DNA of 19,844 bases, from assembly GCA_030040175.1 (NCBI GenBank), contig JASHUF010000113.1:1-19844 (forward strand), written 5' to 3'. The position numbers and the translations under genes are program-made. Below are positions 1 through 16,093 of this stretch, one piece after another (position 1 is the stretch's first letter; every line of letters begins with the position of its first letter). The notes under the pieces were generated by a model, which searched no databases, had not been told where the DNA came from, and saw only the letters and a list, made by a program, of their open reading frames with translations. This stretch comes from Acidobacteriaceae bacterium (lineage in GTDB: Bacteria > Acidobacteriota > Terriglobia > Terriglobales > Acidobacteriaceae).

Positions 1-762
1 TTTGACCCCGCAACCAAAACCTGTCATCCTGAGCGACGAGCGGAGCGAGGAGTCGAAGGACCTGCTTTTTCTCGTGCTCTTCCTCCTGAGCGCTCAATTG
101 ATTGTCATCCTGAGCAAAGCCGCGAGAGCGGCCGAGCTGAAGGACCCGCTTCTACTCTCGATTGTCATCCTGAGCGAAGCCATCCCGCGGTGCGGGATGG
201 CGCAGTCGAAGGACCCGCTTCCCCCGTCAACGCAACCACCCTCGCCGGCTTCACCCTCACCATTGCCGGCGACATCCTCCACTCCCGCGTTGCCCGCTCC
301 AACATGCTGCTGCTGCCGCGCCTGGGCGCGCGCGTGCTGCTCTGCGGCCCGCCGCCGCTGCTGCCCGAAGTCGCTGCGCAATCATCTCCTGGCATCCCAC
401 CCCAGCGACAAGGACCCGTCGCTGGGGACCCCGGCATCGAAATCGTCCGTGACTTCGACACCGCGCTGCGCCAGTCCCAGGCCGTGATGATGCTAAGAAT
501 CCAGGCCGAGCGCCTCGCCGGCCTTGAGCTCGATCTCGACGAGTACAAGGCCGCCTACCAGCTCACCGGCCAGCGCCTCGCCGCGCACGCGCCCCGCGCG
601 CTCGTCCTCCATCCCGGCCCCATCATCCGCGGCATGGAGATCACCGCCGGCGTCGCCGACGGGCCGCAATCCGCCATCCTCGAGCAGGTCACGCATGGGT
701 TGGCGATCCGCATGGCCGTGTTGGAGCGGGCGCTGCTCGCAAGCGAGGGAATGCACCCATGA
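1..762 (+). CDS. pyrB: Aspartate carbamoyltransferase catalytic chain, C-terminal part (5' end outside window)
   Basis: PyrB condenses carbamoyl phosphate with aspartate in pyrimidine synthesis. The frame starting at base 1 is open to the TGA at 760-762. From about base 235 the protein is clear ATCase second domain: LAGFTLTIAGDILHSRVARSN (bases 241-303, carrying the GDI-HSRVARSN signature), then VMMLRIQAER (484-513) and VLHPGPIIRGMEI (604-642), ending in the usual C-terminal helix. The start and the carbamoyl-phosphate domain lie off the left edge. It is odd in two places. Bases 22-222 read as three in-frame copies of a dispersed repeat, where the family normally has a short link before the GDILHSR strand. 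Bases 388-435 add 16 codons between LLPEVAAQ and IEIVRDFDTAL. Both stay in frame, so the gene may still be functional. It overlaps pyrC by ATGA, implying an operon. Identity is sure; intactness is inferred. Confidence 0.9.
   Translation, partial: FDPATKTCHPERRAERGVEGPAFSRALPPERSIDCHPEQSRESGRAEGPASTLDCHPERSHPAVRDGAVEGPASPVNATTLAGFTLTIAGDILHSRVARSNMLLLPRLGARVLLCGPPPLLPEVAAQSSPGIPPQRQGPVAGDPGIEIVRDFDTALRQSQAVMMLRIQAERLAGLELDLDEYKAAYQLTGQRLAAHAPRALVLHPGPIIRGMEITAGVADGPQSAILEQVTHGLAIRMAVLERALLASEGMHP
22..222 (+). repeat. Three in-frame copies of dispersed repeat family A inside pyrB
   Basis: Copies begin with TGTCATCCTGAGC at 22, 103 and 163 and end around GAAGGACC(T/C)GCTT near 70, 155 and 220. 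Starts are 81 and 60 bases apart, both multiples of three, so each copy reads CHPE...EGPA in the same frame as pyrB. The middle of each copy differs and can carry its own hairpin: CATCCCGC/GCGGGATG at 181-199 in the third, GCCGC/GCGGC at 119-132 in the second. A fourth, noncoding copy lies at 2143-2208. Confidence 0.85.
388..435 (+). repeat. Palindromic repeat family B, in-frame 16-codon copy inside pyrB
   Basis: The arms CCCCAGCGA (400-408) and TCGCTGGGG (419-427) form a perfect 9-bp stem with a 10-base loop, flanked by CCA on the left and ACCCCGG on the right. The same flanks and architecture recur at 10613-10651 with a different stem, so this is a copy of a dispersed element. The 48 bases from 388 to 435 are 16 whole codons and no stop is introduced. 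Confidence 0.8.
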
Positions 763-2078
763 CCGCCCTCGTAATTCTCAACGGCCATCTCCTCGACCCC
801 GCCGCCGGCGTCGACGCGCCCCAAGACCTGCTTCTCCAAGACGGCTGCGTTGCCGAGGTCGCCTCGCCCGGCAAGCTCAAAGGCGCGAACGGTGCGCAGA
901 CACTCGACGCCTCCGGCCTCATCGTCGCCCCCGGCCTCATCGATCTCCACGTACACCTGCGCGAGCCCGGCCAGGCTTACAAGGAGACCATCGCCACCGG
1001 CACCGCCGCTGCCGCCGCCGGCGGATTCACCGCCGTCTGCGCCATGCCCAACACCACGCCTGTCAACGACTCGCCCGAGATCACGCGCTGGATGCAGTCG
1101 CCCGACCGCGGGGCCCAGGTTCGGGTTTTTCCCATCGCCGCCGCCACGCGCGCGTCCAAAGGCGAAGCCCTCAACGACTACGCCGCCCTCAAGGCCGCCG
1201 GCGCCGTCGCCGTCACCGACGACGGCCGTCCCATCCTCAAAGACTCCGTCATGCGCGAGTCGCTCGCCGCCGCCGCACGCGCCGGCGTCGCCGTCATCCA
1301 GCACGCGGAAGACACGCGCCTCACCCACTTCGGAAATGGGGTCGCCTCCATGAACCTCGGCCCCACTTCGTTTCGTCTCGGCCTGCGCGGCATGCCCACG
1401 GAAGCAGAATCCGATCTCGTCGAGCGCGACATTCGATTGGTTGCAGAACTGCGCGAAACCCATCCTCAGCTCAGCCCGCATCTGCACGTCGCCCATCTCT
1501 CCACATCCGCCGCGCTCGCCGCCGTGCGCCAGGCACGCCGCAACGGCCTGCGCGTCACCTGCGAGGTCGCTCCGCACCACTTCCTGCTCACCGAGGAGCA
1601 CGTGGGCCTCTATAACACCCACGCCAAGATGAACCCGCCCTTACGGTCATTCGAAGATCGCGATACCCTCATCGAAGGCATTCTGGATGGAGTGGTCGAT
1701 GCCATCGCCACCGACCACGCGCCCCACGCGCAGCACGAGAAGGAAGTCGAGTTCGACCTCGCGCCCAACGGCATCACCGGCCTCGAGACCGCGCTCGGGC
1801 TCGCCGTTCGCTGGCTGCATGGCGAATGGAAACTGCCCTTGGGGCGCGTTTTGAGTCTCCTGAGCGCACAACCCGCCGCGCTGCTCAACCTGAAAGGCCG
1901 CGGGACGCTCACGGTCGGCAGCTACGCCGACGTGATCGTCTTCGATCCCAAAGCCGAATGGACCTTCCGCGCTTCGGAATCAAAGTCGAAGGCCAAGAAC
2001 ACCCCCTTCGACGGCTGGACGATGCAGGGAAAAATCCGCTGGACGATTGCCGAAGGGCGCGTAGCGTACCCCGCCTGA
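759..2078 (+). CDS. pyrC: Dihydroorotase (class I amidohydrolase type)
   Basis: Dihydroorotase cyclises carbamoyl aspartate to dihydroorotate, the step after PyrB. The 439-residue length fits the long bacterial class I form. Visible motifs are the zinc site DLHVHLREPG (D62, H64, H66, R68), substrate motif MPNTTPVND (97-104), the VTDD pair at 152-155, H182 in IQHAED, H246 in HVAHLSTS, CEVAPHHFLLTEE near 268-280, AKMNPPLR (289-296), and ATDHAPH with the likely catalytic D319. NTPFDGW near the C-terminus is also typical of the family. The ATG sits inside the pyrB stop (ATGA, 759-762), which fixes the start and suggests translational coupling. All expected catalytic residues are present, so it should be active. 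No further pyrimidine genes follow; a repeat-rich gap comes next. Confidence 0.96.
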   Translation: MTALVILNGHLLDPAAGVDAPQDLLLQDGCVAEVASPGKLKGANGAQTLDASGLIVAPGLIDLHVHLREPGQAYKETIATGTAAAAAGGFTAVCAMPNTTPVNDSPEITRWMQSPDRGAQVRVFPIAAATRASKGEALNDYAALKAAGAVAVTDDGRPILKDSVMRESLAAAARAGVAVIQHAEDTRLTHFGNGVASMNLGPTSFRLGLRGMPTEAESDLVERDIRLVAELRETHPQLSPHLHVAHLSTSAALAAVRQARRNGLRVTCEVAPHHFLLTEEHVGLYNTHAKMNPPLRSFEDRDTLIEGILDGVVDAIATDHAPHAQHEKEVEFDLAPNGITGLETALGLAVRWLHGEWKLPLGRVLSLLSAQPAALLNLKGRGTLTVGSYADVIVFDPKAEWTFRASESKSKAKNTPFDGWTMQGKIRWTIAEGRVAYPA

Positions 2079-2100: not shown

Positions 2101-2400
2101 AGAGGCCTTCAGGCCTCTGAATGCAGCCGCCCAATTTTGGTCTGTCATCCTGAGCGAAGCAGGCCGCGACTCCTCGCGGACTGCGCAGTCGAAGGACCTG
2201 CTTCTCCACCTCGACGCGTCTTGTATCAGGGCACGGATTCATCCGTGCCGAAAAGGCGATTAAAAGGACCCCGGGCTTCAGCCCCTGAGGGCCGTGCTTT
2301 CCCAGGTCTCTCAGGAGACCTGGGGCACCCGGGGATTGGGCCGGGGCTAAAGCCCGCTCGATTTTTCGTCGCAGATTCATGGGCCTGAAGGCCCATGCTC
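2101..2400 (+). repeat. Mosaic of small perfect palindromes between pyrC and the dehydrogenase
   Basis: The 435-base gap 2079-2513 holds no convincing gene. It contains hairpins in series: AGAGGCCT-TC-AGGCCTCT (2101-2118); GGCACGGAT-TC-ATCCGTGCC (2230-2249); GGGCT-TC-AGCCC (2273-2284); CCCAGGTCTC/GAGACCTGGG with a 4-base loop (2301-2324); GGGCT-AA-AGCCC (2344-2355); and CATGGGCCT-GA-AGGCCCATG (2378-2397). Five of the six have two unpaired central bases and a centre reading TTCA, TGAA or TAAA, while the arms differ and stay self-complementary. None is followed by a T-run, so they do not look like ordinary terminators, although the first lies only 22 bases after the pyrC stop. Confidence 0.85.
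2143..2208 (+). repeat. Noncoding copy of dispersed repeat family A
   Basis: Begins TGTCATCCTGAGCGAAGC and ends CAGTCGAAGGACCTGCTTCT, with a central CCGCGA/TCGCGG hairpin at 2163-2179. It is closely similar to the three copies inside pyrB (22, 103, 163) but lies outside any gene, which shows that the pyrB copies are a mobile or dispersed element and not native coding sequence. Confidence 0.85.
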
Positions 2401-12353: not shown

Positions 12354-13595
12354 ATGCGAGTACGTATTTCAGCGTGGCTAGTATTGCTGGCTTTGATAAC
12401 GTTTACCGCGAGGGCGCAGACCGCGCCTTCCTCTGCTTCGCACAAGCAGATCCATCGCCTTGCACCATCTCAGGCAGTCGCGCTGACACCGCCGATGGGC
12501 TGGAACAGCTGGAACTTTTTTGAGGGAAGAGTGACGGATCAGGATGTCCGCAATGCGGCCGACCAGATGGTGGCCACGGGAATGAAGGACGCGGGCTACG
12601 AGTACATCAATATCGACGACACCTGGGAAGGCGAGCGGGACGCGAACGGCGTGCTGCACTCCAATGAAAAGTTTCCCGACATGAAGGCGCTGGCCGACTA
12701 TGTGCACGCGAAGGGATTGAAGCTGGGCATCTATTCGTCGCCGGGACCGAAGACCTGCGCCGGCTACGCGGCTTCGCTGGACCACGAGGTGCAGGACGCG
12801 CAGCTCTATGCCTCATGGGGAGTCGATTACCTGAAGTACGACCTGTGCAGCTTTATCCCGGCGGTGATGGAGAAGCAGGCGCCGGGCGACAGGGCCGAGC
12901 AGATGCGGCTGATGATTGCTGCGTACAAGAAGATGGACGCGGCGCTCAAGGCCACGGGGCGCCCGATCGTCTACTCGCTCTGCCAGTACGGATGGGATGC
13001 GGTGTGGGAGTGGGGGCCGAGCGTGGGCGCGAACCTGTGGCGCACGACGGGCGACATCCAGGCCAACTGGAACAGCATTTACGCAATCCTGAATGCGCAG
13101 GCGGGCCTCGGGAAGTACGCGGGGCCGGGGCACTGGAACGATCCCGACATGCTGGAGGTGGGCAACGGGAAGCTCACGCTGGCCGAGGACCGCACGCATT
13201 TCTCCATGTGGGCCATGCTGGCGGCGCCGTTGCTCGCCGGCAACGACCTGCCGAATATGAAGCCGGAGGTGAAGGCCATTCTGACTAACCGCGAGGTGAT
13301 CGCAATCGACCAGGACCGGCTGTGCCGCGAGGCCACGCGCGCTTACTCCGAAGGCGAGGTGGATGTATGGACGCGGCATCTCGCCGGCGGCGCGCTCGCC
13401 GTTGCGCTGGTGAACGCGGGCAGCGCGCGATACTCGACGCATCCGTTTCACCTCGATCTTGCGCGGCTGGGATTGCACGGGCCGCTCGAGGCGAGGAATC
13501 TTTGGACGGGGGAGACCATGACGCTCGCCGACGGGATGCCGCTCGAGATCGGGTCACACGACATTCTGCTGGTGCGGATCGCGGCGCCGAAGTAG
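12354..13595 (+). CDS. Secreted alpha-galactosidase, glycoside hydrolase family 27
   Basis: GH27 enzymes release terminal alpha-galactose with retention of configuration. The 413-residue protein has a signal peptide (1-21, ending TARA) and the family's opening TPPMGWNSWNFF (45-56). INIDDTWEGERD (86-97) and GLKLGIYSSPGPKTCAG (121-137) follow. The nucleophile is D163 in YLKYDLC; the acid/base is D234 in LWRTTGDI by comparison with human GLA D170 and D231. WNDPDMLEVGN (261-271) and the C-terminal beta-sandwich with LWTGE complete it. The start at 12354 is chosen over the in-frame TTG at 12336 because GAGGAGGA (12338-12345) is then ideally placed eight bases upstream. It probably acts in the periplasm or outside the cell on plant galactosides. 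A heptamer repeat begins at the base after the stop codon. Confidence 0.95.
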   Translation: MRVRISAWLVLLALITFTARAQTAPSSASHKQIHRLAPSQAVALTPPMGWNSWNFFEGRVTDQDVRNAADQMVATGMKDAGYEYINIDDTWEGERDANGVLHSNEKFPDMKALADYVHAKGLKLGIYSSPGPKTCAGYAASLDHEVQDAQLYASWGVDYLKYDLCSFIPAVMEKQAPGDRAEQMRLMIAAYKKMDAALKATGRPIVYSLCQYGWDAVWEWGPSVGANLWRTTGDIQANWNSIYAILNAQAGLGKYAGPGHWNDPDMLEVGNGKLTLAEDRTHFSMWAMLAAPLLAGNDLPNMKPEVKAILTNREVIAIDQDRLCREATRAYSEGEVDVWTRHLAGGALAVALVNAGSARYSTHPFHLDLARLGLHGPLEARNLWTGETMTLADGMPLEIGSHDILLVRIAAPK

Positions 13596-13623
13596 GGGTC
13601 AGGGGTCAGGGAACAGGGATCAG
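13596..13623 (-). repeat. Heptamer tandem repeat, family C (four units, abutting a stop codon)
   Basis: Units GGGTCAG, GGGTCAG, GGAACAG and GGATCAG lie in tandem with exact 7-base periodicity. They begin at the base directly after the TAG of the alpha-galactosidase gene. In the reverse sense they read CTGATCC, CTGTTCC, CTGACCC, CTGACCC, matching the arrays at 2405 and 15527. The remaining convergent gap to 13699 shows nothing else I can name. Confidence 0.75.
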
Positions 13624-13699
13624 GCAGGCTCGATCAATAGTGGCGTCCTATTTCAATATTCTCGCCGGACCGCGCGTTGCGTAACGGGACGAGCGAACT

Positions 13700-14750: not shown

Positions 14751-16064
14751 TTATTGCGCCAGGCGGATGCCGGAAAACTGCCAGCGCGTCTCCGGCGGGA
14801 AGAAATTGCGGTAGCTCGGGCGGATGTGGCGCCGCGGCGTAAGGCAGGAGCCTCCGCGCAGGACCATCTGGCCGCTCATGAATTTTCCGTTGTACTCGCC
14901 GAGTGCGCCCGCGAGCGGCTTGAATCCGGGATAGGGCAGGTAAGCGCTCGCGGTCCACTGCCAGCAATCCCCAGACCACTTCGTGGCGTTCTGGTCTTGG
15001 AGTGGCTCCGAGGCTGGGGAGGGCGCCGGCGCACCCGATTCGAGGAAGTTGCAGGCGATCAATGTGTCTCGGGCGGGCGCGTCTTCGCTCGCCGCCTCCC
15101 ACTCGAACTCGGTGGGCAGCCGGCAACCGGCCCAGCGCGCATAGGCATCGGCCTCGTAGTAGCTCACCTGGCTTACGGGCGCATCCATGCGCTCTTCGAG
15201 TGGAATGAATCCGCGGAGCGTGAAGACGCTCCAGCCGGTGTCGCCGGGGCTTTCCCCGGGGTCGTCGTTTGTCCAGTAGAGCGGGGCGCGCCAGCCGTTG
15301 TTCTTGACCGCGTCCCAGCCGGCAGAGAGCCAGAGCTCCGGCCGGCGATAGCCGCCATCGGCCATGAAGGCGAGATACTCGCCGCAGGTGACGAGGCGAT
15401 GGCTCAGGGCGTAAGGCTCCAGCCAGACCTGGTGGCGGGCCAGCTCGTTGTCGAAACAAAAGCCGTTTCCCGAGTAACCGACCTGGCGTAGACCGCTTTC
15501 AAACTGCCGGAATTGAAGCGGCCGGTCCTGATCCCTGATCCCTGTTCCCTGTTCCCTTGCCTTGATGTACGAAGGGCGCAGCGGATTGGTGAAAAAGGCG
15601 TGCAGGATGTCGGTGAGCAGGAGCTCCTGGTGCTGCTCCTCGTGGTTCGCGCCGAGCTCAATGCGCTTGAGCGCTTCCGGTTCGGCGCCGGACTCAAGCA
15701 GACGCTCGATGGCGTCATCGACATGCGCACGGTAGTTCAGGATTTCGTCGAGCGCTGGACGCGAGAACGAGGAGCGCAGCTTTTTCTCCGGGAAGGCCGA
15801 ATAGCCCTCGTAGTAACTGTTGAAGAGCCATTGGAAGTCGGAGTGAAAGGGGCGATAGCCGGGAAGGTATTGGCGCAGGATAAAGGACTCGAAGAACCAG
15901 GAGGTGTGAGCAAGGTGCCACTTGGCCGGCGAGGCTTCAGGACACGATTGCACCATCATGTCCTCCGGCGTGAGGGGCGCGCAGAGCTCGAGGGTCTTGC
16001 GGCGAACCGCGCCCAACCGCTCGCTCAGCCCGGCCACGGCTTCAGGGATCGCCGCTGATTTCAT
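14751..16064 (-). CDS. egtB: Ergothioneine sulfoxide synthase (DinB-like plus FGE-sulfatase domain)
   Basis: EgtB is a non-heme iron enzyme that joins hercynine and a cysteine-type thiol with O2. The 437-residue protein has an N-terminal DinB-like bundle carrying the three-histidine iron site: H53 (WHLAHTSWFFE), then H141 and H145 in NHEEQHQE (HxxxHxE). After about residue 190 comes the formylglycine-enzyme-like domain (FDNELARHQVWLEPY, TCGEYLAFMADGGY, VSYYEADAYARWAGCRLPTE, GDCWQWTASAY, VLRGGSC and HIRPSYRNFF). Residues 168-180 (KAREQGTGIRDQD) are encoded by a dispersed heptamer repeat inserted in frame in the linker. The ATG at 16064 is preferred over an upstream TTG; GGGAGG lies 13 bases before it. 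EgtD is next downstream. Whether the thiol donor is gamma-glutamylcysteine or cysteine cannot be read. Confidence 0.95.
   Translation of the reverse strand: MKSAAIPEAVAGLSERLGAVRRKTLELCAPLTPEDMMVQSCPEASPAKWHLAHTSWFFESFILRQYLPGYRPFHSDFQWLFNSYYEGYSAFPEKKLRSSFSRPALDEILNYRAHVDDAIERLLESGAEPEALKRIELGANHEEQHQELLLTDILHAFFTNPLRPSYIKAREQGTGIRDQDRPLQFRQFESGLRQVGYSGNGFCFDNELARHQVWLEPYALSHRLVTCGEYLAFMADGGYRRPELWLSAGWDAVKNNGWRAPLYWTNDDPGESPGDTGWSVFTLRGFIPLEERMDAPVSQVSYYEADAYARWAGCRLPTEFEWEAASEDAPARDTLIACNFLESGAPAPSPASEPLQDQNATKWSGDCWQWTASAYLPYPGFKPLAGALGEYNGKFMSGQMVLRGGSCLTPRRHIRPSYRNFFPPETRWQFSGIRLAQ
15527..15561 (+). repeat. Heptamer tandem repeat, family C, inside egtB
   Basis: Five tandem units: CCTGATC, CCTGATC, CCTGTTC, CCTGTTC and CCTTGCC. 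On the minus (coding) strand they encode part of KAREQGTGIRDQD, residues 168-180 of EgtB, and introduce no stop. The location is the linker between the DinB-like and FGE-like domains, a place that can tolerate length changes. Confidence 0.8.
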
Positions 16065-16093
16065 ATCTTTCAGGACCTCCCGACGGATCAAGG

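Follow-up and report, generated by a model that had tools for sequence, protein, structure and literature searches.

In-frame copies of dispersed hairpin repeats in the interdomain link of aspartate carbamoyltransferase in an acidobacterial genus

How several copies of a dispersed hairpin repeat come to lie in frame within pyrB, the gene of an essential enzyme (aspartate carbamoyltransferase, ATCase), and whether the enzyme survives them, are the questions raised by this locus. The window, namely the whole stretch of 19,844 nucleotides analysed, is the entire contig C489 of a MAG (562 contigs, 3.37 Mb, 80% complete). The N-terminal half of pyrB lies outside the window and its frame is unreadable upstream, because base 1 is the end of the contig. 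The remaining frame was free of stops from position 1 to 759 and was closed by a stop codon at 760-762. Its product was matched by the Asp/Orn-binding domain profile PF00185 with 70.3 bits (cut-off 29.4) and by NF002032 at residues 79-244 with 150.9 bits, which is below the whole-protein cut-off of 263. The carbamoyl-phosphate domain was found upstream in frame in the relative P0005, and the window's own would lie beyond the contig end. Codons 1-7 of the window (FDPATKT) agreed with the in-frame pre-insert context in relatives, e.g. L036 and L105. As the best reading of this locus (Table 1), with a probability of roughly 0.78, the copies are considered to be repeat insertions that turn over quickly and are tolerated in permissive loops.

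Table 1. Coordinates of the features of the pyrB locus and of the repeats in the window
Feature	Position	Strand	Basis or remark
pyrB 3' part (aspartate carbamoyltransferase)	1..762	+	PF00185 match; contig end at base 1
Pre-insert flank FDPATKT	1..21	+	similar form in inserted alleles of relatives
Repeat copy 1 (CHPERRAERGVEGPA)	22..68	+	exact core match, in pyrB
Possible degenerate 5' half-copy (LPPERS)	79..91	+	3 mismatches to 13-mer; in phase
Repeat copy 2 (CHPEQSRESGRAEGPA), hairpin	103..152	+	exact core match, in pyrB
Repeat copy 3 (CHPERSHPAVRDGAVEGPA), 10-bp hairpin stem	163..220	+	exact core match, in pyrB
Asp-binding domain of pyrB	from about 247	+	PF00185
Second dispersed palindrome (IPPQRQGPVAGDPG), 42 nt, in pyrB frame	394..435	+	pattern search of genome
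pyrC (dihydroorotase)	759..2078	+	open start to stop; PF01979, PF12890; overlaps pyrB end
Noncoding copy of first repeat, downstream of pyrC	2143..2203	+	exact core match
Further dispersed repeat (GGGAACAGGGATCAGG type; peptide REQGTGIRDQ) in gene 14751-16091	15527..15557	-	in frame

The sequence TGTCATCCTGAGC was found exactly four times in the window, always on the plus strand (starts at 22, 103, 163 and 2143), with a mean of 0.00 occurrences in 200 shuffles of the window. The three copies in pyrB were spaced by 81 and 60 nt in a single codon phase of the open frame and the fourth was noncoding, all as reported in the preliminary description. That the element is dispersed, also claimed there, was borne out by its 12-base core GTCATCCTGAGC, with 69 exact matches in the window's genome and 0 for the reversed control. 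The repeat is laid out as (C)TGTCATCCTGAGCG, a hairpin with a copy-specific stem, and AGTCGAAGGAYCTGC, in that order. By eye and uncounted, the stems of the G000 copies vary and are often near-perfect palindromes, as if the arms were corrected mutually. For the possible half-copy, seven matches with three mismatches were present in the window against 5.1 expected, and seven were reached in 47 of the 200 shuffles; it is not significant by itself, and the sole point in its favour is its location in the array, where the following core comes 24 nt later.

Core-like matches with two mismatches or fewer numbered 111 in the stretches read, of which 81 were kept (70 with the 3' core) and 30, having neither a 3' core nor a near-exact 5' core, were dropped. 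Some open frame, with 40 codons on each side, surrounded 28 of the 81 copies, and few were marked as coding by a codon score calibrated on the window genes. In-gene copies were recognised in UvrC (VILS..VEGSA; gene name from Pfam and NCBIfam; negative score of one flank) and in a PTPS-related membrane protein (VILS..VEGPA). Three cases were doubtful: in C465 the copy lay opposite to the strand of a membrane-protein-like frame, and in C33 and C314 it lay close to a frame end.

The preliminary description had proposed selection of the repeat for an open coding phase, or its pre-adaptation to one, and the counts spoke against this. The length from 5' core to 3' core was distributed over the modulo-3 classes as 26/23/21 among the genome copies in which both cores were present (n=70), and as 22/23/21 (n=66) without the four pyrB rows, all of which fell into the first class. 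Spacings of neighbouring cores were divisible by 3 in all three pairs in pyrB (the doubtful half-copy being used twice) and in one of eight pairs outside pyrB in the stretches read. Of the 26 pyrB inserts in which at least two 5' cores were recognised, 13 contained cores in both the CHPE and the VILS phase. As for the second element, its tandem copies in C392, whose flanks did not score as coding, were 40 and 41 nt apart, whereas those in PEP carboxylase were 42 nt apart. From this contrast, together with the modulo-3 data of the first repeat, the reading frame is set by the host gene and is not carried by the repeat. Since TGA occurs in one of the three phases in which the 5' core can be read, two further copies would fall in phase by chance about 1 time in 4 by reasoning, and the shared phase of the three pyrB copies is by itself weak evidence. 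The count of genome copies per phase, suggested in the preliminary description, gave a divided result: the copies at large had no preference, and those recognised within genes, three in all, had the 3'-core frame VEGPA/VEGSA in common. Three frames of the 3' core are open, of which a single one (VEGPA) was used by all 70 recognised 3' cores in the pyrB inserts; a common origin in one early insert, or selection acting on the peptide, may be the cause.

In the preliminary description the copies had been placed in the link that immediately precedes the LAG..GDILHSRVARSN strand of ATCase, and the inserts of relatives were found in the same interdomain link. The plain link, counted from HPTQALLD to GDI..HSRVARSN, was 27-30 aa long in 17 acidobacterial rows outside the genus. 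A full C-terminal match to pyrB was present in 72 genomes of the same genus; among these, the link was 28 aa in 61 and 44-66 aa, at the same site, in nine others; a long insert was present in 10 with the window counted, the link of the window being at least 89 residues from base 1. The relatives at genus level include G005 (taken as Terracidiphilus gabretensis), whose link was 37 aa without a recognisable core. No stop was present in the searched C-terminal part of pyrB in these 72 full genome matches, and in protein databases, which hold open frames only, broken inserts would escape. Links of 39-99 aa were found in 73 of 121 proteins (the best 120 homologues of 8000 scored, and the query), which is no frequency, because the homologue list favours the query, itself inserted.

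In the 77 distinct inserted links, the 5' cores were of the CHPE type in 75 cases and of the VILS type in 29, and 70 3' cores were recognised, in the VEGPA frame; loose patterns were used for these motif counts as well as for those in UvrC and in the EgtB-like gene (see below). Most inserts spelled CHPE.. or VILS.. plus VEGPA or VEGSA, and three of the 77 links, including that of the nearest relative (L036), had no recognisable core. The inserted alleles mostly had the flank type H[FL]DPx[TS][KR], and the uninserted ones mostly LRPG. The uniformity of the 3'-core frame and of the flank exceeds what repeated independent insertion would predict, so that common descent or some selection on the peptide may have contributed. 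The median number of cores was 45 in the 10 inserted genomes and 11 in the 62 others (one-sided p=2e-4, without correction for relatedness); 72 of the 80 genomes were taken, the eight without a full C-terminal match being excluded.

A large insert in an essential gene, together with an N-terminal half missing from the window, might mean that pyrB is decaying and that the repeats mark a pseudogene, which the preliminary description had offered as the other outcome (a dying gene). The missing half falls past the contig end, the frame is stop-free, and this outcome is very improbable. The dN/dS of the C-terminal part was 0.21 against L036 and 0.17-0.30 against 10 relatives, which points to purifying selection on pyrB of the window. 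Of 96 columns invariant among 80 relatives, 23 differed in the window, all of them at positions 71-158 of the absent N-terminal domain, and no invariant residue was lost downstream of the insert. A second intact pyrB, a caveat of the preliminary description, was not found in the window's genome (80% complete); the only other carbamoyl-phosphate domain found there was argF beside argD (names from reading the ORFs).

The AlphaFold model of the relative P0005 (not of the window protein) had a mean pLDDT of 78.5 and a pTM of 0.80, and the insert was modelled between helix 155-168, the last of the first domain, and strand 228-232, the first of the second domain, with pLDDT below 50 at 187-209. The site corresponds to residue 143 of B. 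subtilis ATCase. Judging from this model, the insert would be a low-confidence loop in the link of the carbamoyl-phosphate and aspartate domains; it is apparently tolerated as a loop, in keeping with the preliminary description, and the enzyme presumably tolerates such inserts.

Since the contig terminates at the repeat and MAG data were used, and since several homologues including P0005 are on contigs shorter than 2 kb, an assembly artefact in which repeat reads were collapsed into the pyrB locus was considered. It is scarcely credible, as in-frame inserts at the same site were present in many separate assemblies, including the genomes G001 and G009 of about 20 contigs, and one allele (P0040) was found on 14 contigs.

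The distribution of the inserted state was followed on a protein tree (198 rows, link excluded), on which 78 rows were inserted, including the 37-aa link of G005; the tree is weak, 79 of its 195 inner branches being open. The state changed at least 33 times, 12 of these changes being forced by supported branches, and shuffled labels needed 62 changes on average, from which the insert state is partly inherited. Between the sister genes P0027 and P0042, 98-99% identical outside the link, the number of 5' cores was three and one, respectively. P0024 and P0063 were identical across the 162 N-terminal residues and 95% identical in the C-terminal part, with different link alleles; their contigs are of 1.6 and 4.0 kb, so that chimeras are possible.

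These changes on the tree, the unlike links of P0024 and P0063 behind the same N-terminal residues and the common flank type would also be expected from a single ancient insertion, after which link alleles with and without the insert passed from one species to another through short recombination tracts. Such exchange is conceivable, with the odds against it: the P0024/P0063 pair is possibly chimeric, and the junction codons bore no sign of shared ancestry. Their excess similarity among the nine inserted alleles with DNA (z 5.5) disappeared without the C-ending codons (z 0.2), and a local tree of 60 codons, weakly resolved, left the inserted alleles ungrouped with 9 changes, equal to a distant part of the gene. 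As for linkage of the insert state with its flank in the protein, the identity of same-class minus different-class pairs reached 0.03 at the junction, and in no other segment along the protein did it depart from zero by more than 0.006.

A recombination tract ("co-conversion") was also tried as a candidate and was rejected as evidence, the synonymous similarity of the inserted alleles near the junction lying in C-ending codons. The proportion of third-position C in the nearest 20 codons was 0.81 in the nine inserted genus genomes; near the junction, uninserted genes had 0.50, and the 15 of them that were richest in C had 0.72.

Repeats of this kind are known from other bacteria. In Rickettsia, palindromic elements (RPEs) are inserted at protein surfaces. 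The resemblance to RPEs, pointed out in the preliminary description, holds as regards behaviour, this repeat being likewise dispersed, palindromic and in frame in conserved genes including an essential enzyme; membership among the RPEs is not claimed, and Rickettsia belongs to another phylum. RPEs are dispersed palindromic repeats of several families, in and outside genes and many of them in frame (PMC10969869; also treated in PMC2635572). Here, unlike in RPEs, two dispersed elements share one enzyme, and many species have inserts in one and the same link. REPs of the GTAG and CGTC families, where intragenic, are short hairpins in ORFs, as here, whose clusters encode 43 to 82 residues; according to the 2013 paper, they strike DNA repair genes and, in one case, about the same recB site in two Xanthomonas (PMC3733652), and the same-site recurrence is wider in this genus. 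No GTAG or CGTC tetranucleotide was seen by eye at the stem-loop ends of the listed copies, which end in TGTCATCC... and ...AGTCGAAGGAYCTGC. In PMC3733652, TIR repeats are also described as small dispersed repeats near tyrosine transposases (TIRYT genes) in acidobacteria, i.e. in the same phylum; the present repeat, in contrast, was absent from the 32 stretches read in the neighbourhood of such genes. The inserts act like RPEs and intragenic REPs, by analogy only.

Mobilisation by RAYT was rejected, the repeat core being absent (0/32, one mismatch or fewer) from the RAYT-gene stretches examined (97 kb, 31 distinct RAYT genes), which were 30 loci out of a longer list and two further G000 stretches. 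A REP survey of 2025 includes acidobacterial genomes, without an intragenic case in its accessible part (PMC12306157). Among the top-ranked literature matches, by which subscription journals are mostly uncovered, no description of this repeat or of acidobacterial ATCase inserts was found. The sequence family, the reuse of one link of an essential enzyme across the genus and the padding of several enzymes by several repeats were not found described among these matches.

The second palindrome of pyrB, which went unmentioned in the preliminary description, gave 61 strand-counted matches by its pattern in the window's genome (control 0), many sites being counted twice because the sequence is palindromic. 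At position 394-435 it was absent from most of the listed genus relatives. An insert of its size was found at the same place in 17 of 191 scored PyrBs, with 16 changes on the tree against 16.5 for shuffled labels, and such inserts are no more clustered than shuffled labels. In the gene of PEP carboxylase (L230, 3515-3670; G000:C50), four tandem 42-nt copies of the same palindrome (PPQRQGPVAGDPG) were in frame. The first link of UvrC varied from 30 to 114 aa in the 28 genes read (loci L235-L264, i.e. 30 loci out of 80 genomes with a match, two being unreadable), and repeat-type peptides of four motif types, defined loosely, were found in 22 of these 28. Two of the four types were tied to repeats shown to be dispersed; the other two (GAPG..SETW and KGHDFSRAEN..ALAPEG) are presumably derived from dispersed repeats as well.

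The REQGTGIRDQ-encoding repeat, which lies in a gene taken by us to be EgtB-like, consists of 7-nt units (GGGAACA/GGGATCA), has a second copy at 13594-13624 just beyond another gene, and gave 51 strand-counted matches in the genome (one mismatch or fewer; control 5). The peptide type was found at the same link in 14 of 30 related loci (30 loci out of 66 genomes with a match). It may tentatively be supposed that interdomain links in this genus are built chiefly from dispersed repeats, several unrelated families of which would be inserted in frame in the links of many housekeeping enzymes, with link-confined swaps between near-identical genes. If this were true, the non-essential loops of the proteome would change with mobile repeats and not by point mutation.

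The recurrence of inserts at a single link between two domains, the single 3'-core frame (70/70 recognised cores) and the common flank type of the inserted alleles could also be taken to mean that the repeat-derived link was recruited for a benefit such as tethering, assembly with dihydroorotase or slower translation between the domains. This is unlikely, as the link is plain in 61 of the 72 same-genus genomes, the insert is present or absent between sister genes, its length varies from 39 to 99 aa with the sequence not kept, and different repeats occupy the links of other enzymes. Under the preferred reading of tolerated insertions, a small cluster of the dispersed hairpin repeat would have settled in the interdomain link of ATCase. 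Copies landing at most coding positions would be lost by selection, and those in flexible links may persist when the frame stays open, the survivors being translated as a probably disordered peptide. Such link copies would then grow, shrink and get replaced quickly because they are still repetitive, and the repeat-derived peptide itself would need no role. The locus would thus offer a natural replicated experiment on the tolerance of an essential enzyme, the same joint being plain or up to 99 residues long in close relatives, and would add soil bacteria that are free-living and of another phylum to the hosts of in-frame palindromic elements, at one link in many species.

A practical warning for acidobacterial MAGs is that such repeats can end contigs, as in this window, and can lengthen gene models. 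A full C-terminal match to pyrB was lacking in eight genomes (G025, G010, G017, G014, G094, G096, G099 and G068), even in G025, which is 94% complete; assembly breaks at such repeats may be the reason. In G098 (99% complete) and G009 (100%), an inserted pyrB was the sole match.
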